From Lineus longissimus (Eukaryota > Nemertea > Pilidiophora > Heteronemertea > Lineidae), in NCBI RefSeq assembly GCF_910592395.1, contig NC_088308.1, positions 558,001 through 622,000 on the forward strand: a stretch of DNA of 64,000 bases, given 5' to 3'. This document shows positions 8,356 to 55,929 of this stretch, one piece after another. Position 1 is the first letter of the stretch; each line of letters opens with the position of its first letter. The notes beneath the pieces were generated by a model that saw nothing but the letters and a program-made list of their open reading frames with translations, was not told where the DNA came from and did not search any database. A program made the translations under genes and the position numbers.

Positions 8356-8579
8356 AAGTCCGAGTGGGACAATTTTTTGGGGTATAAAAGAGGGTCCTTA
8401 GATATATGTCCTTACAGGTTTAGCTCAAATAGAAACGAAACGTGCCACCTATCGGTGATTTAGTGAACTTTGACCTCTGTGACCTTGAAAAGTAGGTCAA
8501 ATCAAAAACCCGCGTGACATGTCATTTAACCTTATTAGATACACCCACCATAAAAATGTCATCACTCTACGTAAAAAAT

Positions 8580-8986
8580 GGATCCAGGGGCCATTGTGCT
8601 TACATCGGGAGTGAATGGATCCAAGGGCCATTGTGCTCACATCGATAGTGAATGGATCCAGGGGCCATTGTGCTCACATCAGGAGTGAATGGATCCAGGG
8701 GCCATTGTGCTCACATCAGGAGTGAATGGATCCAGGGGCCATTGTGCTCACATCAGGAGTGAATGGATCCAAGGGCCATTGCGCTCACATCAGGAGTGAA
8801 TGGATCCAGGGGCCATTGTGCTCACATCGATAGTGAATGGATCCAGGGGCCATTGTGCTCACATCAGGAGTGAATGGATCCAGGGGCCATTGTGCTCACA
8901 TCAGGAGTGAATGGATCCAGGGGCCATTGTGCTCACATCAGGAGTGAATGGATCCAAGGGCCATTGCGCTCACATCAGGAGTGAAT
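8580..8986. repeat. 37-bp minisatellite, exactly 11 units, with 5-unit higher-order structure
   Basis: Eleven gap-free 37-bp units begin GGATCC(A/G) and end GAGTGAAT. Variant sites show that units 2-6 and 7-11 repeat the same order. Units 2 and 7 carry CATCGATAG, units 3-5 and 8-10 are the consensus, and units 6 and 11 carry AAGGG with GCGCT. So a 185-bp block of five units was duplicated. The array is non-coding and each unit has a BamHI-type GGATCC. Confidence 0.95.
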
Positions 8987-10524
8987 GGATGCATTGCAAA
9001 TGCATTATAGGTATGAGCTAAGTAAAGTCTCCAGTTGGCACATGTGACTGTACCCTAAAAGCAGAAATGAAATACTCATTCTACAGAGTGGCTCAATATC
9101 TTTATATTGATCTTTCAATCTTTCAAACCACCAAAAATAACACTTGTTTACAGGCCTATACTGATACTTGCTTATTCTTCGAAGATTACGATTTATGAAT
9201 TGGTACGATTGGTAAAAAATAGATCCCTACCTGGTTTTCTTAATTTCATGGAACTTGAGCATCATTCATATTCATAAGTCAAAGTTCTTACTCCTAAATT
9301 CCGTCCAATCTTAGACAGACTGGTTACTCTAAGGTCCAATCCAACACATTTGAAGTCCAATCCATGCTACAGAATTTCATCTATTCGAACACAGTTATAG
9401 TCCATGCTACTGAATCCCATCCACGCGAACACTATTGGTGGTCCATGCTGCTACTCATCCATTTACCTGTAGGCCTACACGACATGCACGACCCGATGCT
9501 ATCGCCTATGTAACTCTTCATCACAACACATCCCCTGCATCTAGACTAATTCCATTCTGTACATGTACCAGCACAGGCGGCAGGCTTTTGGCAGCTCCCA
9601 AAAGTGACTGTACATATATATATTAGGCTATAGTGTTGATTTGATATATACATATCATGATAGGAGTGACCAGTGCCAGCGGACGCCACTTTACCTTAGG
9701 GAATTCCAAAGACGCACTGGTCCTTATTTTGCTTAATTCAAAGTCATTACCTTGCCCGAGTCCTGGAAATACAGCTACAAGGGGCAAAAAACCAAAATAG
9801 ATGCAATCAATTCGTGACATATTTCACATAAATCCAGAGAAATCGTCATATAGCCAACCAAACGATACAGAGAATACCACCACAGAAAGGTCACAACACT
9901 TTATCAAAATCATTTATCCACTCGATGTCTGGGAAATTGCGATTTTGTAAATGTATTTTTTATCAAATAAAGTTAAAACGCGCGTGCAGTCAGTGATAGG
10001 CCTAATATAATAGCGATAGGCTCGTCGTTTGAGTCGTCTCACATTATCGTTTTGAACTAATTATGCGGCGGCCGCTATATCGACACACCTGCAGCTGTGC
10101 TCTTCGAAGACGTCCACAACTCTCCTCTTGTTTGGGCTTTGCAACCAGAAGCCCTTCCCAGTGTAACCGACGACTCTTCAGCATAAACCGTGCACTCAGT
10201 AAAAATAACGAGGGTGTTTGACTAAAACTTCAGGGCGGGGCGAGGCAAGCTTGATAATCGAAATCGACATATCAGGTTTTGGCAAGGATCAGGATTTCGT
10301 CAATCGGGATCAATATCATAGTTGGCCTTAATGCAAGATCAAATCCTTTATTGCGATATGCATGAGCTAATATGCATGAGCCATACGTTGTGTGAGTGAC
10401 AAATAATTCGCCTTTGTAAATCAAACTCATTATCACGGTGTCCAATCAAAGACAAAATTATTTTATTCGTACTAGATTTCGTTCATGCATAACTAATCGT
10501 GGTGATTACTTTTTCAAGTTTTTC
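8987..10524. other. Non-coding stretch with a weak short repeat
   Basis: No gene is supported. At 9325-9460 a degenerate unit AGTCCAATCCATGCTAC ... GAATCCCATCCACGCGAACAC recurs about three times. A GC-richer patch with GCGGCCGC lies near 10065. Confidence 0.45.
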
Positions 10525-22708: not shown

Positions 22709-25700
22709 ATGACAACGTTTCAGTGGAATTCAGGCCCGAATCAACCAAACCAATGGTAATTTGAATATATAAAGCATAAATTGAAACCAGTGTTTTGCGG
22801 TTCATTTAATTGAAAGTTGGTTTATTTTCTCTTAAAAAGTAAGGTGTGTCGTCATCTTTTCAGAAATCTGCGCTGCGTTGCGTGCATTGTGTGTGTTGTG
22901 TGCATGTCGCGTGCATATGCTGAGAAGGCATGGTGGTCAATGCGTAGTGACAGTGTGCATTGCCATTGCATCATCGTTTTCATAACTCATTCGCCTGGAA
23001 AGCACAACTCGCGTACTCTTGTGTGGTGACTGTTGGTGAGCAAGAAACAACAAATTGATGCAATGTGAAACCAACATAAAAATTAAATGTAGGCCTATTT
23101 GTTGAAAGTGCGGAATAAACTAGGCCTATATTGAAAAGGAAAGGATTTTTTAATTGCAGTCAAAATGACTTAAACTCTGTCAAAAAATTGACATGTCTTG
23201 CCCGCCGGTGCAAGCACTAGCAGCTGTGCTTCTGGTACATCGCATTATGCAGAAAACACTGCTGGGAGAGTGTTGGTGCTCTGTTAGTGTTAAGGTTTTA
23301 TTACTTTCACTTCAGGAATCAGTTTGGTAATGCTGGCCAGGACCAACAACAAGAAAACTTCCCAAATCCTGAATGGGAGAAAGCGAAAAAAGCGCTGGAA
23401 GCTGTTCAGAAGGAAATGAAAAAGAGTGGTGACGACAAGTCTGGAAGCCAAGAAAAACAGTCTGAGGTCGATCAGCAGTTGGATAACTCACAACAGAATA
23501 CAAACAACATGAATAATCATGGACCACATGGGAACATGTTTCAGAATCAGAACCAGCAACATTTCAATATGTATCAGCAACAGTATGGCTTCCAGGGGTA
23601 CGCAGTAGACGCTTGAATGTGACCACTCTTATTGTTCTCAGTGATCTACTGACCTTTACATGCATATTCGCTGAATATCTCCGGCTTTTTCAGGCAGCTG
23701 TAGTCAGCTTTGAATTGATTATACCTTATGATGGTAATCAAATGTTTGCCATGTGGCATGGTGAAATCGCTCCAGTGTACATTGTTCTTATAATCCTAAA
23801 TGTAACAGTATATTACTTTCAATTTCAGGTTCAATTATATGCCACCCGGTCCAGGAGGCCCTGGTCCCCGTGGTTTTGGAATGTTTGGTCCAGGCCGTGG
23901 GGGCCCACCTCACATGCAGAATGTAAGTATTTGAATGGAGAGGTCATTGAATATACACGTAAGCAGTATGAACAATATGATGAAGGAAATTTTGTTTTTA
24001 ATCTTTCCATCTGTATCAAGGAGTTAGATTGTATCTGTATCTGATTTACTTTTAGAAAGGGCACAAGAGCAGAGGCAAGAGTTACACATTTGCTTTATAT
24101 AGTAGCGTCTTGTTTTTTTTCAGTTTGGTCCCGGTCCTGGTCCATATCCACATCCTGGGATGGATGAGCCACACATGTTTCAGCAGGGACCTAATGGTCC
24201 CAGAGGTCCACCTCCCCGTCCACCTGGCCCTTGTCCACCACGGTGGGGGTTCAACGGCCCCCCTTTTGGAAATGGAGGTATGTATATGAAAAATCAGGAT
24301 GGAGCATTCTATTGTTTGTGAGTACTGGGTGAGGCCGCGTGAGCTGTTCAAGTATTTGCTATTACAAATTGGTAAAAAAACCCTGCTTGTGTGATCAGCA
24401 GAAAGCCTAAGTGGTGTTCTCACCAGCACTCACTAACAAAATGTCAAACTGAATTGCCAACAGCAATCTGTTTCTGATGGTCATAGGCTTCCATTAACTA
24501 TGTGTAACTGTGGTCTTCGACTGATCTTACCACTTGTTTTCTTGTAGGTCCACCAGGTGGCCAGGGAGGAGGAGTCCGGTTCAACATCAACAAGCCTAAC
24601 AATCATATACAGAATAACAACAATGACAACTTCCCTCAGAATCAAAACAACTTCAGTCAACAACAACAAAACAAATTCTATCAGGGAAAACAACAAAATA
24701 AAAAACGTCAACAACAACAACAGCAATCGCCACAGTTGCCAAAACAGGAGAATCAACAGAATAGAAGCGAGGACCAACAGGATGGGGGAACTGAATCAGC
24801 ACAGAAGAAAAATATCGAACAGATTACTAAACCTCCGGAGAAAGAGGTGGATGATGATGAGAAGAGTACGGGTCACCCTGCAGCTGGAGAGTGGCCTCCT
24901 TCTCTGAAGTAAGTCTTAACATCTAAATGAATCCACCCTGTAAGGTGATTATGTTTAAGAGATTTGTGTATGATTTTGTTCGAAATGCTCTTGAGAATGA
25001 ATATGAAGTTGGTTTGCCAAAGTCGCGACATTTGGTTTCGGACCATACGATAGTAACTGCTTGTCCAAATCCATCTCTAGTATAACTCCTCATTGATCTA
25101 TTCTTGCAGAGATTATGTGCAAAGAGCTTTTGCTAGTGCCATAACAGACAGTCAAAGGGATGAGGTAGAAAAGGTCTTGAAGAACAAATTAACTTCTTCA
25201 TTTAATGATGGCTCTGCATGGACCAAGGACTGGGGCCAGGAACCGCTACCTCTGTAAGTAGATGATCACCTGTATATATCTCGCTATTCAATTCAGTCAC
25301 TTATTCAAAAGTGATGTATGAATGAGGTCCTGAGTTACAGTCCATTAACATGTGTCATATGGGTGGGTAAGGAGTGAGTGCTTAGTGTGCCAACATACTA
25401 GGATATGTACATTGTGACGACATGAATTGTGAGTTGTATGTAGGGGTTCCAGTATGTTGACGGGAATAATGCTGCGGGATCCTGAGCCGTGAGCTATCTA
25501 AAAAATGAGCTGTGTTATGAATGTGACTTAACTGTGTGTTTGTCTGTTTTCAGAACCAATATGATCCCCCTAAACACTCCTGCACCTTCCCATGCATTCA
25601 CACCCTCAGGTAAGTCAGGTGGGATGTCTGGGAAGCTAAGTCGCTGGGATAACATGAGGGGATCACTACAAGCAAAAAGTGGCAGGAACTTTTTCTCGCC

Positions 25701-28700
25701 ACGCACTCCCACTCAGTCACGCATGCGTTCACGGTCCCGGTCTCGCAGTTGGTCACGATCAAGGTCAAGGTCACCCTATAGGAGAAGGGAACGGGGTTCA
25801 TCTCGTAGGAAACGATACAGTAGTGAATCGAGTAGTAGCGTCATCTCTGAAGATAGCATTAGTGGTAGGAGTTCTAGATCGTCAAGGTCACAGAAACTAC
25901 CTGAGAAGTATGGTCGAGGACGTGGGAAGAATCAGCGCGGACGTGGCAGAGGTCGGGGACGTGGACGTGGTTATGATAAGGATGCTGAGAACAAACCTGG
26001 TGAGAAGCCTGCTAGTCAGAAAAAGGCAAAGAGAGGAAAACAAGCTGCGTAAGTATATTTTGATAACCAAAAGTCTGTTTTTTTCTGACATGGCCGCAGT
26101 GTTGCTTTCTGGGTTCTTGCACGCACCCTTCGTTTGAGACAGATCGCGGGTGTTTGATTGGTGTTCCATTCTGTTGAAATGAGTGTTATGAAGACTGAGA
26201 TGTCACCGCCAATGGCCGGGATGGGATCACTTTAATAACAGTTTCATAATATAGTTATATGTTCATGTGAATTTGCTTTCAGTGGTGGCCAGAATCAGTT
26301 TACAGTCGACTACAATGCTGGAGAGAAGCGATTCAAATTGATGAAGCGAGCTGCCAGATTCGTGGAGCATCTGGATGAGACGCCGAACAAGAGACCAAAG
26401 TCAAAACTGGTGCTTACTATCAATGTAAGGTTCTCTGAGGTATTGCATGATCTGTTATAAAACATTCTCGGTGTACGACAGGCTTTTGTCTGTAGGTCTT
26501 GTCACGCTGAATGTTGCAAAACACTGGTGGATACCACTCGGGGGAAGTCGCCCAGTGGTTTCCACCAAACCATTGCACTGTAAAGTCACCAAGGTACAGT
26601 TGTTGTTTGACTATATCTCTTGCATTCTTGTGTACGACAGGCTTTCAACTATAGGTCTTGTCTTGAAGGGCTGAATGCTACAGAAAACTGCTGGACTTCA
26701 CTCTTGGGGCCAGTCTCCTCGACTTGTCACGAAGTGATCTCTACCAAACATTTGCTGTTTTGCAAAACTGCCACCATCGTCAAAACGAAATAAGGTTTTT
26801 CTCATTCCTTATGTCTTCAAAAACATAAGACTAAAGAGCATTCTTGTGTACGACAGGCTTTCTTCAGTAGGTCTTGTCTTGAAGGGCTGAATGCTACAGA
26901 AAAACTGGTGGAATCCGCTGTTTGAGGAAATCAGCCTCAAAAAGTGAATCCACCAAACAATATCTGTATGCTCTGATCAATCACTATCTGTTTTATGCTT
27001 GGAAATCTGTAGATGTGTATATGGTATTGTGTAATTTAGTGGATTCAAGGAGCAGTTGAATGTGTGATTTATACGTATTTTGAGTGAGTGATTGTCTCTT
27101 GGAAGATTTGTTATTTGACTCTATAAGTGCCTTCTTTGTGGATGGTAGGCCTCTTACCATGGTTGCAAAACACTGGTGGCCATGTGTCAGTGGTTTCCAC
27201 CAAACCAGAGCAGGGTTTGGCCTGAATGCCACTGATAACTGATAGAGGCCTTTGTTTGGCAAGTGTTTATCACACGTATCATACAGAAGAGATATTGCAG
27301 TAGTGATGCCCAGGAAAGTTGATACTTCAATCATGATTCACATGTTAGTGTTGACAATCTTTGAAGTCTGCTTGGTACCATGCTGCTTTTTTCTCATTCA
27401 ATATTTTCAAACGAATTTGTAGTTGTGGGGTCGGATGACTTGCCTGAAGTCATTTCCACTGTCATGTTATGTAATCTGTTCATCTTTACAGGACAACAGC
27501 GATGGAGAGGATATCATGGACTTCAATGACAGGAACATCGTAGGAACAAATACGGGCTTGGAAAAACGCTATTTGAGACTTACTGCTGTAAGTATAAGGG
27601 GCAGTTAAGGATATATTCCTGTGTTTCCTCCAGAAACAACTCTGTTGTACAAATTTGATGTTAAGTCTTTCAGCATTCTTTGTGTACGGCTGACTTGTCC
27701 CATAAGTCATTCCTTGAAGGGCCGAATGCTACATCAAAATGGTGGAAATGGTTGGAGAGATGACTGACTTTGTCTCTCTTTTTGGTTCACCAGACATTTC
27801 ATGACTTTAATGTTGGTTGTTTTAGCCTCTCTTGATACTCCTCATCCCTTTGACCGAAATCATTAAGTTACCATCATCCTTGACCACTTAGAGATGAAAT
27901 ATGCATTCTTTGTGTACGGCTGACTTGTCCCATAAGTCATTCCTTGAAGGGCCGAATGCTACATGAAAATGGTGGATTGAGTTGGAGAGATGACTTGTAT
28001 TGTCTCTCTGCGTTGTTCACCAAACATATTGAGCTCACTCACTGAGTTTAGGTCCGGAGTTCTTCAGGGGAAAAGGCGCTTTGAAAGACCTATGATGACT
28101 ATTTGTAGGCCCCAGATCCTTGTACGGTGAGGCCATTAGAGGTACTGAAGGAATCGTTAAAGATGGTGAAGGAGAAATGGTTAAAGAAACAAGACTACCG
28201 CTACGCCTGTGAACAACTCAAGTCAATACGTCAAGATTTAACAGTAAGTTGTCAAGACCCTCTTTGTCTCTGTGTAGCTGGTCAGAGAGGATCTGGACAG
28301 TCTCTGTCTTATTTGAGCATTTTCAATCCTTGTGTTCTTCTCAATGCATTCTTTGTGTACGGCAGGCTTTCTTCAATAGGTCATGCCTTGAAGGGCTGAA
28401 TGCTACATCAAAATGGTGGTTTCTACTGTTGGGGCTAGTCACCCTTGTCTTGTCACAAAGTGGTTTCCACCAGACACTTGCAAGGCCAGACAGTCCTTGA
28501 ATAGAAAGTTGATATCTCAATCCTTATGTCTCATTATCTCATTGAACATGCATTCTTTGTGTACGGCAGGCTTTCTTCAATAGGTCATGCCTTGAAGGGC
28601 TGAATGCTACAGTAAACCAATGGTTTCCATTATTGGGGCTTGTTGCCTTGACTTGTTACATCATGGTCTCCAGCGAACACTTCAACAAATAGATGCAATA

Positions 28701-30365
28701 CAGTCACCCTCATACCTCTGCATGAGTATTTGATTCAGTGTTTGTTTGCAGGTACAATGTGTACGAGATGCGTTCACAGCTCAGGTGTATGAATGTCATG
28801 CCAGAGTAGCCATGGAAAAGTGTGATCACGAAGAATTCAATCAGTGCCAAACTCAGCTGAAAGCTCTCTATACAGAAGGAATAGGAGGAAATAGATTAGA
28901 ATTCACGGCCTATCGACTCCTATACTACATATTCACCAAAAACACTCTTGGTATCCTTTTGTGAGGTTTGTGAGAATGGAAGGGTTTTAGTCAGACTAGT
29001 TCCTTTCATTTCTGTCTGCTTGGGGGCATTGTGTTATGGGTTGTAAAGGTTTTAGTAAATTAACATATCACTAAAGAACTTGTACGGTAAGCCTTTATGG
29101 GTTAGGGCATTAATTACCGGTATGTATCTGAATACTTTCCAAATGATTTCCTTGACCCACATTCTCAGATCTTACCACTGCCTTGGCCTCGCTGTCTCAG
29201 TCAGATAGAGACAACGAATGTATAAAACATGCCCTAGCATTAAGGGCAGCTTGGGGACAAAATAATTTCATCAAGTTTTTCAAATTATATAGGGTAGCTC
29301 CGAAAATGTCCGGGTATCTTATTGACTGGTTCATTTTAAGGGAAAGAAAGAGTGCGTTGAAGGCCATCATCAAATCGTATGTATACTATTTCTTTTTATC
29401 TATATCTTCTGCAATTGCATGTCATTTTCTTGGTTACTGAATCATTTCTTGGCCAAACTGACAGATTCACTTTTGACTTCGATTGAAAATATTTATCACT
29501 CCAACTTGCTTTGGAACTTTGTTCAAGACTTGGACTTGAATGCAAATTGAAGTAAATGGTGCTTTCTTGTGTAAACACTCATGATAAAGTTGGTTAAGAC
29601 ATTCAGTAAATCCTCTGTAAGACTTAGTCTGTTATTGTGTACAGTGCATTGTTTTGCCAAGTCAAACTAGTCGCTAGCTGTTTGCACGGTTATAGAGGTA
29701 AGTTCTGCTCAAGCTACTGTTATGTTAGCAGTTGGTGTGCTGCCCGAGTAAATGAGCACAGCTGCAGCTTAAGTTGTTATGTATTGTCAAAGATTATGAT
29801 TCATGGTGCTTTTGACCAAAGATGGGGGAAGAATTTAGTTAGCTAGTATCTTAGAATAACAAACAAATCAATGCCAAAGTGGGCACAACTTGGTGAGGGT
29901 AGCTGTACGCAGTATGTGACGTACAGCTTCTCCCATCAATTTGATATGATAATAACCAGTCATTGGGCCATGATGTCGAACTCTCTCCTTGTAGGTAAGC
30001 CGTTTTGCTTTCAGCGTTTTCTTTTCAGCTGAAATGGATAAGTATGCGATAGTTATATTGATATGAGCTATTAGTATGTGATTCTGAGCCTCACATTCTA
30101 GATGTGCAATATGTTCAACATGTGATGTACCTCTTTACTTCAGTGTTAAGCTTCATTTCACGACATTTTATAACTGATTTTTCCTTCTTTTTGCTGAACG
30201 TGTAGGTATCGGCCCACGCTTCCTATCTCGCATGTACAGACCTCGCTGGCGTTCTCAAATAGCGAAGATTGTGTGAATTTTCTGAAAGAAGTGGGTGTGA
30301 CCATCTCTGCGGACGGTCTGAAAATCGACTGCAAGCAATCGATGTCTGTGGTACCTGGTTTATAA
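22709..30365 (+). CDS. LENG8: LENG8 orthologue (SAC3/THP3-family mRNA-processing factor), complete
   Basis: Thirteen coding exons with matching phases and GT/AG sites: 22709-22755, 23316-23597, 23829-23922, 24124-24277, 24548-24908, 25110-25253, 25554-26048, 26283-26424, 27492-27587, 28109-28243, 28752-28950, 29169-29376 and 30206-30365. Total 838 aa against about 800 in human. The N-terminus has the conserved [12 protein letters not shown] block and is rich in Q, N, G and P. Exon 5 carries GVRFNINK and exon 6 KDYVQRAF ... DWGQEPLPL. Exon 7 holds SR-type repeats and a GRGRGRGRG segment. Exons 9-13 form the SAC3/PCI-like region: [67 protein letters not shown] and [20 protein letters not shown]. 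The family acts in the nucleus in mRNA transcription, splicing and export. The first CDS exon follows an AG at 22701-22702, so a 5' UTR exon probably lies upstream. Confidence 0.97.
26461..26575 (+). ncRNA. H/ACA snoRNA-like copy 1 (LENG8 intron 8), guide and ACA altered
   Basis: The outer stem AACATTC ... GAATGTT is a compensated version of GCATTC ... GAATGC in the other copies. Upper stem GACAGG ... TTGTC. Hinge GCAAAACAC. The second hairpin GGTGGA ... TCCACC is followed by AAACCATT instead of AAACA. The 3' side of the first pocket reads ACGCT instead of AAGGGC, so it would not guide the shared target. It may be a retargeted or decaying copy. Confidence 0.6.
26622..26753 (+). ncRNA. H/ACA snoRNA copy 2 (LENG8 intron 8)
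   Basis: 132 nt. First hairpin: outer stem GCATTC/GAATGC, 5' pocket TTGTGTAC, upper stem GACA/TGTC, 3' pocket AAGGGC. H box ACAGAA at 26680-26685. Second hairpin, then ACA at 26748-26750, three nt from the end. The pocket complements 18S rRNA GCCCUU-U-G-UACACA, and 14 nt separate AAGGGC's first base from the H box, as the H/ACA rule requires. Confidence 0.85.
26838..26962 (+). ncRNA. H/ACA snoRNA copy 3 (LENG8 intron 8), both pockets well formed
   Basis: 125 nt. The first hairpin is nearly identical to copy 2. The second hairpin is textbook: lower stem GGTGGA/TCCACC, upper stem TTTGAGG/CCTCAAA, left pocket ATCCGCTG, right pocket AAGTGAA, and 15 nt from the upper stem to ACA (26957-26959). 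The first pocket matches 18S; the target of the second pocket was not identified. Confidence 0.9.
27127..27210 (+). ncRNA. Decayed H/ACA snoRNA copy 4 (LENG8 intron 8)
   Basis: GCCTTCTTTGTG aligns with GCATTCTTTGTG of other copies. Then comes a shortened hairpin (ATGGTA ... TACCAT), and GTTGCAAAACACTGGTGG is identical to copy 1. The second hairpin ends CCACCAAACCAGA without an ACA. It lacks AAGGGC and is probably a pseudogene most related to copy 1. Confidence 0.55.
27673..27799 (+). ncRNA. H/ACA snoRNA copy 5 (LENG8 intron 9)
   Basis: 127 nt. First hairpin GCATTC/GAATGC with apical GACTT/AAGTC stem; pocket TTTGTGTAC and AAGGGC intact. Hinge ACATCAAAA. Second hairpin lower stem GGTG/CACC, upper stem GAGAGA/TCTCTC, left pocket GAAATGGTT, right pocket TTTTTGGTT. 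ACA at 27794-27796, 15 nt from the pocket. The first 62 nt are identical to copy 6. Confidence 0.9.
27903..28029 (+). ncRNA. H/ACA snoRNA copy 6 (LENG8 intron 9)
   Basis: 127 nt. Its first hairpin is identical to copy 5. The second hairpin keeps the GAGAGA/TCTCTC upper stem and GGTG/CACC lower stem but has different pocket strands (GATTGAGTT and TGCGTTGTT). ACA at 28024-28026, about 80 nt before the next exon. Confidence 0.9.
28346..28479 (+). ncRNA. H/ACA snoRNA copy 7 (LENG8 intron 10)
   Basis: 134 nt. The first hairpin has upper stem GGCA/TGCC where copies 2 and 3 have GACA/TGTC, a compensatory A-U to G-C change. Pocket TTTGTGTAC and AAGGGC. Hinge ACATCAAAA. Second hairpin GGTGG/CCACC, ACA at 28474-28476. 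Confidence 0.88.
28550..28682 (+). ncRNA. H/ACA snoRNA copy 8 (LENG8 intron 10)
   Basis: 133 nt. The first 62 nt (GCATTC to GCTACA) are identical to copy 7, then the hinge and second hairpin diverge (AATGGTTTCC ... GGTCTCC). ACA at 28677-28679, about 70 nt before exon 11. The pocket matching 18S is intact. Confidence 0.85.
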
Positions 30366-32892
30366 AGATCACCCGAGTATGGTCACCTGTAACGCTGCTC
30401 TATCCGGTGGATGGGGTAGTGTTACCTGCTCCCAAGAGTCTGATCTGTGCCCTGTCTGTGTCTGCCTACGACACATCGAGTGGTGGAGGAGGGGAGACCC
30501 CAGTTGGTTGTGTCAAGCTCATATTGTGGTGGATGGGGACAGTGGTCATCATTGGGTTCATTGGGATGGGACGAGCTGCTGTTAGTGTTGTCCATTAAGC
30601 TTATTGGCCCCTGTTTCGCGTAAAATGCAGACTGTCATATTTTCTCAAACAGACTTAAGATCCAAATTCATCATCAATCATGGCTGTAGAATTGTTTCTG
30701 TGCGTATCTTGCCATCCTTGCTAGCAAGTACATGTATGGCATTACCTTTTATACATCCACTGGACTAGATGTATCGTGCATACCAGATATGTTCTAGCAT
30801 CTCGACTCCCGTCGCCAGTGCTCATGGAGTGTAGCATAAGAACTCTTTATCATTGGGTAACAACCTTTATCATTAACAAGATGTGAGGGCGCGGCAAAAC
30901 AATTGCCCACCGTTTCAATTCGTATTCCAAGCTCGACGAAAAATTGGTTGTGGACTCAAATAGTTCATTTTCATACCTGTCTCTACCATACCTTATCAAA
31001 AACCAAACGCAATGTTTTCAAACTTTATTGAGCTTTAGAAGTTTCCAAAGATGAGTTAGGATGATGTTTAGTCGCTGTTCTAATCCGGTCGCTGCTGTTA
31101 TCTCGCGGAAACATCCCACAGTTGTTGAGGAAAGAATGGAGTTATACTGGACACTCGGGTTGATCGGCAGTTTTCAAATCGCACTGGCACTCCATGTTCC
31201 CAGTAGACGTGTGCACATGCCAGTTTTGCCAGTTGTTGCAGTTACACATTTGTGATGGACACTATGTTATCACCGCACGTACGTAGGGAGGGACTATTGT
31301 TGTGTTTGAAGGGACACACTAAAGCATTTTTTTCAGCTCTGGTCAGTGTTGTCAAATGTTTATTCACGAAATTGCACTGTCATGCTTTCATCCTCACATC
31401 TCGGAGTAAGTTACATTGATTGTGCACCTTCAGGATTCGTGGGATACATCTTTGAAGGATCCGGGGATTTCTACGACGTTAGTAGCGGTATTGAGTCACC
31501 ATGATGAGGCACTCGTATGATTCGCACCTTCAGTTATCTATTTGGGACTGAGCAGGCCAGTTACACGAACTGTGATTTTGCATGAATTCTACTCCGTTAT
31601 CTTACACCACCTGGAAGTCGCAGCCTGAAGATAATGTCGCCAGTTTATGAATGTTCCCTAAACTTCTCTTATGTTGTTGTTGATTTGAATAATAAGCATG
31701 TCTTTTCAGCGTTATTTTTGCAGGTGAATATTTTGTTTTTTCTTCAGAATTTAAATGATGATCAGGTCTGGCTCCTAATATGGGCGATTAAGTTCAACTT
31801 AAGTTGCTTCGAATTGAAATCGTTTGTATTGTTAGTTGTTTTGAGGGTTGAACCTCTCAGTTTGCAGAGCATCCAGAGAGTCCCACACCATTTGAAGTCA
31901 TGATCATTTTAACTTGGCCAGTACCATCTGTTCAGGACTTCACTCCTAACAACACACAATACAGACCTCTAGCCTAAGACGGAGCAAGTTTATGTTCTAA
32001 AGTCTGGTGACTTCAAGTAATGATAATTGTTATTTTTGCATGGCATTTCTAATGTAATGAATTCTCATTTAAAATGTCTCAATGTCATTGATATCTAAAA
32101 AGTTTTATGGCTGCTTTTCCCTAATAACTGATTGCTTTACGCAGTTGGAGGTCATCCTAATCAATTTAGTGTTGAATGTCGGTTTACCAAAGAATCCAGA
32201 TTGGATTTGTGTTAGTCATGCTCACCCTGAAATCAAGTGACCCATGACAAATAACTTGCTCATTATATACATGTGCATGGGACAACGTGATTTCTGTGTA
32301 AACTTAGGTGTAGAAATATTCCTTGGCAACTTCATCAGGAGGAAGTGATAGACTTTGCAGCATAGCTGTCACCACTGGTCTTGGTCCTGCCTTTCAGTCA
32401 TTCAGCATATTTTCACACCAGTAAGATCCTGCAAGGTTCAACAGGTTTATTCAGTTGAGGTTATATGTACTTTGAATGGCCTTGGGCCAAAATTGTGAGT
32501 CGAGTAACTTGTTTCAATTCCAATTGATTATTGTTCAAACCAATTTCACCGTTTTTGCAATAAGCTGTAAGCCTGTTGGCCCTTGCATGTCTGTGTATTG
32601 GGATCCCTTGGTCCCAGCTGAGGTGAAAATACTTGGCTATTTGGAAATCAAACCATTTGCCAAAACCTCCTCGTGTACCTACACGTTTTGTCCGTATTGA
32701 AATAGTAAATTGCCTCGTGGAGGTAAAGTGCCACCTAGTGTCAATTATTGAACTTAAATAACTGATGATAAAAAGGGAAATACTTACAATGGTTTTGTTT
32801 GTTGAACTTTTCATGTTGGATCCCCGTGGGGTCTTGTCGACAGTTAACACTAGATGTGGATTTGTGAATACTAATAGTTAGGTGTAAATAAA
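30366..32892 (+). other. Probable long 3' UTR of LENG8
   Basis: There is no coding support after the LENG8 stop. By eye the first canonical AATAAA after the stop is at 32887-32892, so the 3' UTR could reach about 2.5 kb. A shorter form with a variant signal is possible. Confidence 0.4.
32887..32892 (+). terminator. Candidate polyadenylation signal of LENG8
   Basis: AATAAA followed within 30 bases by T-rich sequence. Assigned by position only. Confidence 0.4.
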
Positions 32893-45303: not shown

Positions 45304-45951
45304 TTGACCAGACGTTATAGGTGGCGTTAGGGTCGCTGGTCGAACCCCTCTACGATCAACAAGTGGTTGAATAGTTCCAAAATTTATAAATTCAGCCCTG
45401 GTAACCCTAACCCGCGCGATCGAAACTGGTGGAGTCGTTGGACCTTTTATAACTCTGGCCCCCACATGCAAGTGCAGACCTACTTAGGGTTTGGTTATGC
45501 CTTTATGAAATTGTATGGCATGTCTGTGTTCATTATAGCTACAGTCTACAGCCGTATAACATGATTTCATATGAGAAGCTCGACTAGCTAATCTGATAAG
45601 GGTGTTGCCTTTTCTCATCAGAACCAACCACTCCACCCTCAGAAGGACATGGGTCACTCATCAACTCTCTCTCTCCGCATCATAACATGATTTCCGCTCG
45701 CCCTTCATGTCTAAACCAGTTACCACTTGACCTAACTATTAGGCCGGGTGTGACACTGACCGAGAACATCCTCCTCGAGAATCAAGAGCAGAGCATGTTG
45801 GCCAGGACTATTAGCCCTATTTATAAAGGGAAGACGTTTAAATTAAATGGTAAGTCAGGGAGGATAGCCGGCTGGTGGATGTTTCCCACCCTTTTGCGGT
45901 CCCCAGGTATGATACGTCACTTGATGTGTCCTTTAACTAGTGTTGCTCTCT

Positions 45952-46194
45952 GGTTATGCTACGACCCATACAGTGAGGCTACGACCAACCCAGCGAGGTC
46001 ACAACCCACCCAGAGAGGTTTCCCACTTCTCAGGTTATGCTACGACCCATACAGTGAGGCTACGACCAACCCAGCGAGGCCACAACCCACCCAGAGAGGT
46101 TTCCCACTTCTCAGGTTATGCTACGACCCATACAGTGAGGCTACGACCAACCCAGCGAGGCCACAACCCACCCAGAGAGGTTTCCCACTTCTCA
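45952..46194. repeat. 81-bp tandem repeat, three units
   Basis: Units start at 45952, 46033 and 46114 (GGTTATGCTACGACCCATAC). Units 2 and 3 are identical and unit 1 differs by one visible base (AGGTCAC against AGGCCAC). The 81-bp period is 27 codons, so two forward frames stay open across all units (one containing CYDPYSEATTNPAR). No start, splice or family evidence supports translation. Confidence 0.92.
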
Positions 46195-54445: not shown

Positions 54446-55929
54446 ACAGTGGATTCGTGTCCATACCTCCGGCAAAAATCCAGAACGGTAATGAAGCCAA
54501 CTCAGTGTGCATTGCAGAAGACAAAGTGAACGTGACTATAGAGGCATAAAGCTTGACATTATGGTTTGTTGTCATTTGTGTTAGTTTCCCACAAATGTTT
54601 GAATTGGACACAGGCAATGACAATACTGCTAGATCCTGTCGTAGAGGCAGATAATCGCCATGTTCTGTTTGGTGAGGCAGTTTAGCAGACGATGTTGCTA
54701 AATGTTTGCATTGTGTATGAGTCAGGGCCTACGTGTGTCGGCGTACGTGTTGGCTCGAAAATACATGTTCTATGCTGACACCAAAGGAAGTGTGTCGCAT
54801 CAGAGAATGTCATGCTTGGTCTCATTGTGCTTATAATGTAACATTATAGATGTGATTAGTCTGTATCAAATCGCCATCAACGAGCGATGAAGGCCACCTA
54901 ACGGCAACTATCAACAACAGCATATTGTAACTCCATTGAATGAAAGACGATGCAACACGTCATCATCACATTGGTGACATGAGAGTACAGAGGCGTCATG
55001 TTGGCAATTCCTAGGTTCCATCACCATAATTTATCGCCGATGTTTTTCAAACTTTGATTCCACAAGGGATTCAACATAAAACTAACGATCTGTAATCCAA
55101 CATCATCCATTCACAAACCACAACATTGATTATTTGTCAGAAAAGAGCAACTTGTCTATTTCTAAATTTTGCGATAAATTGCAAATGGAAAAACTTTTAA
55201 GTGTTTCGTATCACGATTCCAGTTGATGGCGTATGTGGGGGTTTTCAGATTGATTTTATCAGCGGGGTTTGATGTGTTTTATGTCACTCTGATGCGATCT
55301 TGACGGTGAAATTGTCGGGAACCTGTTTGATCTGACTCGCGTACTTATTTTTATTTCGAGGCAGTTGTGAGAGTGATTTTATCAGCTGTCATTTAATGTG
55401 CTTTTGGAAAATTTATCAATAATATGATTTCTCTTGGGGTTTGATATTGCTGCAAATTCTCGAGTTTAATTAGTGTTTTTTTGTTCCGTTTGCCAGCTTT
55501 ATGAATTCTGACTCAGTTGTATGCCTCTGCTCAACAGAGAAGCGAACGGAAAATAACGTTGGTGATAAAATGGCACCAGCACCAGCACCAGTAATCTTGG
55601 CCATTTTGTGCTAAGATTTCCGTCTCTGCGCTACACTTACGAAACGTAGCAAGTAGGCCTCCTAAACTATCCTCCGGCACGATGAAAAAAGTTATTATGA
55701 GATATCAATGTGATGTTATTTGACTAAAAGCTAAACAACACTGATGAATGTAAAAGTTGAATTGGTGATAATTTTCATGTTTGTACAGCTGCATGGCCCA
55801 GATATCATGACCATACCTCTCGATACAAACCTCCAGGCATGCTCTAAGTTGCATATTTTATACAACTGATAACTTATCTTGTTTATTTTGCAAATAACTC
55901 ACCAACTTTCTGTGTGATTTCTACTGTTG
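54446..55929. other. Non-coding stretch
   Basis: AT-rich. No gene or repeat is supported. Confidence 0.5.

Follow-up and report, generated by a model that had tools for sequence, protein, structure and literature searches.

Human SNORA70 (U70) is hosted by RPL10 and carries its guide pocket in the 3' hairpin. Pseudouridine 1692 (Psi1692) of human 18S rRNA has been attributed to this snoRNA (PMC9610020); the site sits where neck and head of the small subunit meet and is altered in breast tumours (PMC10227372). A second source gives SNORA64 as the guide of U1692 (PMC7760958), in conflict with that attribution, and in an Arabidopsis comparison (PMC8351944) the site number turns up in the reference list only. 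In Drosophila, snoH1 is located in an intron of mfl and guides 18S U1820, a modification called conserved from yeast to man (PMC1821038). Cis-duplication of snoRNAs has been described for ribosomal protein genes of sponges and for chicken (PMC3412847, PMC2653536), and nematode and platypus cases are cited between these two papers.

The locus presented here, in a 64-kb window of Lineus longissimus DNA, is very probably, judging from its letters, an intronic family of box H/ACA snoRNAs that has multiplied by cis-duplication and whose 5' hairpin would guide 18S Psi1692. It shares its predicted 18S uridine with human SNORA70 (PMC9610020), although the copies have no significant match to Rfam H/ACA families. 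As with snoH1, an 18S uridine would be guided by an H/ACA RNA from an intron, but snoH1 is reported as one H/ACA gene in a pseudouridine synthase gene, in the mfl cluster with a single ncRNA gene for each intron (PMC1821038); LENG8 holds seven copies, two to three per intron, or four with a remnant. With the sponge and chicken cis-duplicates the LENG8 copies have in common the introns of one host, a guide that is kept and a remainder that varies (PMC3412847, PMC2653536), while they differ in the LENG8 host, in the number of seven copies plus a remnant and in the occurrence of several per intron. The kind of RNA, the 18S target and the duplication within one host gene are already known. Apparently new are the LENG8 host and the packing of two to three copies into each intron, and the identity of 5' hairpins within two introns, with diverging 3' hairpins and seemingly unrelated flanks, is new. 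No earlier report of a LENG8 snoRNA cluster was recognised among titles and abstract openings of the open-licence literature on LENG8 and snoRNA, mollusc hosts and cis-duplication. An earlier note on this DNA knew of no such family described for this host gene.

The host gene and the introns concerned are as follows:

25554-30365, + strand: LENG8 host gene, 3' part, joined frame open to the stop
25554-26048, 26283-26424, 27492-27587, 28109-28243, 28752-28950, 29169-29376 and 30206-30365 (stop), + strand: LENG8 exons as read
26425-27491, + strand: intron A, GT..AG, joined frame open, contains c1, c2, c3 and the remnant c4
27588-28108, + strand: intron B, GT..AG, contains c5 and c6
28244-28751, + strand: intron C, GT..AG, contains c7 and c8

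The joined exons, tested with the first piece started two bases before 25554, keep an open frame throughout, to the stop codon at 30363-30365. The host protein matched PDB chains named Leukocyte receptor cluster member 8 (best E-value = 1.3e-96) and contains the SAC3_GANP (SAC3/GANP) Pfam domain (E-value = 6.8e-26). The 120 relatives listed out of 2213 in the database are headed by the LENG8 homologues from Haliotis asinina (64%) and Tubulanus polymorphus (63%), identities that by themselves would point to a mollusc or another lophotrochozoan as the probable source. A long hairpin (GTAGCTGTACG...CGTACAGCTTC) is also present at 29887-29942, in the last large intron of LENG8, with a weak match to the mir-965 model (E-value = 1.8).

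Seven copies of a unit of 114-134 nt and one remnant are found at 26461-28682 of the + strand, in three LENG8 introns; all seven copies (7/7) are intronic and on the LENG8 strand (+), and their 3' ends were placed by assumption at ACA+3:

26461-26574, + strand: c1, 114 nt, diverged H/ACA copy with ACC for ACA, right guide strand lost, fold very stable
26622-26753, + strand: c2, 132 nt, H/ACA snoRNA candidate, 18S guide intact
26838-26962, + strand: c3, 125 nt, H/ACA snoRNA candidate, 18S guide intact
27129-27215, + strand: c4, remnant, of which 27134-27207 aligns to c1, ACC as in c1
27673-27799, + strand: c5, 127 nt, H/ACA snoRNA candidate, 18S guide intact
27903-28029, + strand: c6, 127 nt, H/ACA snoRNA candidate, 18S guide intact, 5' hairpin the same as in c5
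28346-28479, + strand: c7, 134 nt, H/ACA snoRNA candidate, 18S guide intact
28550-28682, + strand: c8, 133 nt, 5' hairpin the same as in c7, guide intact, 3' hairpin degenerate

The remnant c4 is nearest to c1 (local score 66, runner-up 39). Both have ACC and a near-identical 3' stem, and they form a separate sub-line that is decaying or diverging.

An ANANNA hinge (H box) is present in 7/7 copies, in c1 via AAAACA and shifted by a few nt, and ACA is seen at the base of the 3' stem in 6/7, with ACC in c1, the 3' ends themselves being assumed. Alignment of all seven units (mean column identity 76%) gave a consensus structure comprising two 5' stems (lower and upper) and a lower stem on the 3' side, in which standard pairs occupy 94.1% of 152 cells; sliding one side of the structure reduced this to 32-46%. 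The lower-stem gap in c2 and c3 comes from the alignment, and the pair counts exclude the cells of these two copies at the pair concerned. The two hairpins with a hinge that the earlier note had described are thereby borne out, with the exception of the 3' hairpin of c8, and the ACA that it gave for all copies but the first recurs at the base of that stem. The two stem differences in the note were also recovered: the outermost pair is changed on both sides in c1, from G-C to A-U, and the upper-stem pair said to differ between copies 2-3 and 7-8 is A-U in three copies (c1-c3) and G-C in four (c5-c8). Furthermore, the outer pair of the 3' stem changes from U-A to C-G in c8. Three two-sided pair changes were matched by 27/500 shuffles and the covariation score by 1/500, and the further pair types (n = 8) were not above shuffles (500/500 attain 8). 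Given these results, and since related copies inherit changes, the covariation is real but modest; compensatory evolution, as claimed before, stands for three pairs changed on both sides, at that modest strength.

Folding each copy, as the earlier note had proposed, gave a mixed outcome. The minimum fold of the whole sequence is the two-hairpin form in c1, c2, c3 and c5, while c6 and c7 adopt a different minimum fold within 1 kcal/mol of it. The exception to the two-hairpin anatomy is c8, which is no more stable than shuffles and lacks the family hairpin in its 3' half. The fold z-scores are -4.76 (c1), -3.29 (c3), -2.15 (c6), -1.59 (c7), -1.49 (c5), -1.45 (c2) and 0.00 (c8). Of the seven near-intact copies and one decayed copy reported previously, all seven are in place and c4 is indeed a remnant, but c1 and c8 are less intact than was thought. 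In c1 ACA and half of the guide are gone, though the fold is very stable; in c8 the z-score is 0.00 and the 3' hairpin does not form canonically.

Two 18S records and two stretches of 28S (spacers included) were searched for targets of pockets that lie 12 to 16 nt from the boxes, with our own simple stacking sums as scores; these records and stretches represent the rRNA of other organisms rather than the host's own; the 18S records were retrieved by a pattern that includes the target site. Eleven contigs (L002-L012) filed under prokaryote genomes contain the eukaryotic 18S string GCCCTTTGTACACACCGCCCGTC and are therefore probably contaminants. The best 5'-pocket site in c2, c3, c5, c6, c7 and c8 is CUGCCCUUUGUACACACC, in both 18S records, and the predicted 18S target in 6/7 copies reads GCCCUU[U]GUACACACC, with the target U in brackets. 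The guide strands, exemplified by c7, are:

28354-28359, + strand: left guide strand of c7, TGTGTA, 6 pairs to 18S UACACA, same letters in c2, c3, c5, c6 and c8
28391-28396, + strand: right guide strand of c7, AAGGGC, 6 pairs to 18S GCCCUU, same letters in c2, c3, c5, c6 and c8

The right guide strand begins 14 nt ahead of the H box (6+6 register, 6/7 copies). In this register the target is the last U, directly before GUACACACC; in a 7+5 register, one nt upstream, it is the middle U, and the stacking sum is slightly better (-24.29 vs -22.98 for 6+6). Among 150 dinucleotide shuffles (one 18S, one 28S stretch), the observed best score was matched by 0 for c2, 1 for c5 and 4 for c7. This control was run on c1, c2, c5 and c7; c3, c6 and c8 have the same guide letters as c2, c5 and c7. 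Copy c1 does not fit the 18S site, and its own best score was attained in 48/150 of the same shuffles, which is not significant. Counting against the prediction, the upper stem is separated from the right guide strand by three to four unpaired nt, and the pocket is not the tightest. A shared target of the 3' pocket was rejected: the best scores differ among copies, and 17 to 138 of 150 shuffles equal them (4/7 copies run).

The predicted target uridine most likely corresponds to human 18S Psi1692, as far as sequence comparison can tell. By a count over the fly sequence, fly 18S U1820 would be the Psi1692 site or its neighbour. A CMC stop falls one base 3' of a pseudouridine. The oligo used for mapping Psi1692 contains GTACACACCGCCCGT and starts GTACACACC after its adaptor part (PMC9610020), and this one-base offset would put Psi1692 at the U immediately ahead of the mapping-oligo stretch. 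The SNORA70 primer of PMC7760958 includes the reverse complement of GTGTACGC, which resembles the left guide of the LENG8 copies, where GTGTACG is found. SNORA70 is preferred here over SNORA64 as the U1692 guide because of these primer letters and the attribution in PMC9610020.

Covariance searches identified no described family. In the 64-kb window no Rfam family, SNORA70 included, reached its gathering score; at 25000-31000 no H/ACA family appeared up to an E-value of 10, and at 26049-28760 the sole H/ACA match was SNORA42 (15.3 bits, cut-off 70, E-value = 5.5), which is not significant. Weaker Rfam matches, for example to mir-5360, OmrA-B and SNORD101, are far under their cut-offs and were taken as chance. 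A model built from the seven copies (R1) was searched against the window with default filters and E-values up to 10. By construction it recovers its seven source copies, at 100 to 151 bits. Beyond these, nothing in the 64 kb was better than the c4 region (20.2 bits, E-value = 0.015), where the register does not coincide with the c1-like part; the only weaker matches were an antisense partial one inside c3 (E-value = 0.057) and one at 54569-54694 (E-value = 0.25). Since R1 gives no other clear copy, the family is local within the window. The anatomy, the PDB and Pfam matches and the R1 search together uphold the earlier reading of locally amplified H/ACA snoRNAs hosted by LENG8.

A scan for H/ACA-like motifs and folding energy gave eight + strand hits below -30 kcal/mol, five of which are c2, c3, c5, c6 and c7; c1 and c8 are absent from the listed hits. 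At the same threshold there were two hits on the - strand and 1 to 4 per shuffled window (six windows, one strand each). On these counts the energy of a fold is by itself weak evidence. The top three hits of the scan fall in a 37-nt tandem repeat at 8577-8990 (11.2 copies), the units of which pair mutually and mimic strong H/ACA-like folds. Another tandem repeat, of 81 nt (3.1 copies, 98% match), is located at 45947-46194 within a 195-aa open frame.

Divergence is distributed unevenly along the units. In c5/c6 and in c7/c8 the 5' hairpins agree at every position (100%), also in the terminal loops, and in c2/c3 they are 93% identical, while the 3' hairpins of c5/c6, c7/c8 and c2/c3 reach 80, 71 and 61%. 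For the 40-nt flanks of these pairs, identity is 48, 54 and 35% upstream and 46, 53 and 47% downstream, where random flanks have a median of 47 and a 95% point of 54.5. Across all 21 copy pairs only the upstream flanks of c3/c8 (63.6%) and c6/c8 (57.8%) exceed this 95% point, and no downstream flanks do. The 3' hairpins of c2 and c7 (76%) are closer than those of c7 and c8 (71%). Among the six guide-bearing copies the 3' hairpins are 50-80% identical and the guide strands unchanged. The 5' half may have been homogenised within introns, or else it is kept by selection while the 3' half is relaxed; gene conversion may be the source of the identical 5' hairpins, but a 3' half under relaxed selection, that of c8 in particular, gives the same pattern.

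That homology ends sharply at the snoRNA ends, between flanks that look unrelated, is also what retroposed units would present, and the copies might belong to a dispersed snoRNA-derived retroposon or SINE, dense here by chance and mostly non-functional. We consider this very improbable, as the seven copies all occur in one gene and on the host strand, R1 gives no further clear copy in 64 kb, the 40 nt after each copy's end hold no long A-tract, and the guide letters are retained in 6/7. The units could otherwise be pre-mRNA hairpins serving LENG8 splicing or decay and not free guide RNAs. In human cells the LENG8 protein forms a link between early splicing factors and the exosome, which makes an intron-based feedback conceivable (PMC13322074); H and ACA boxes together with an 18S-matched pocket are not expected of such hairpins, and this explanation is extremely unlikely.

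A possible, if doubtful, case is that no more than one or two of the copies are expressed as snoRNAs, the remainder being fading cis-duplicates. The loss of ACA and guide in c1 and c4, the broken 3' stem of c8 and the weak fold z-scores of c2, c5 and c7 agree with it, but six copies have preserved their guide strands unchanged despite 3' hairpins of such limited identity (50-80%).

For a cis-duplicated family of guide snoRNAs, which we favour, the following course can be proposed. The LENG8 transcript would be spliced and the intron debranched and trimmed to the snoRNP-protected unit. The 5' hairpin would then offer UGUGUA and AAGGGC to 18S rRNA, according to the computed pairing, and dyskerin would be directed to the uridine between GCCCUU and GUACACACC, the presumed equivalent of human Psi1692. 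As the guide is unchanged in 6/7, the copies may be redundant isoforms that raise dosage, and as no target is common to the copies in the 3' pocket, the 3' hairpin may mainly complete the two-hairpin particle. The copies would have arisen within LENG8, diverging most outside the guide hairpin, and the c1/c4 sub-line would have lost box ACA and guide, and be decaying or have changed its role. It is a speculative and rather improbable extension that the LENG8 introns act as a snoRNA factory, with 5' guide hairpins homogenised per intron, 3' hairpins and flanks free, c1/c4 in another role and the host protein maybe tied by feedback to the maturation of its own intronic RNAs. A predicted rRNA target is hereby supplied for a snoRNA family missed by Rfam models, and the cluster would permit testing whether copy number raises Psi1692 modification.
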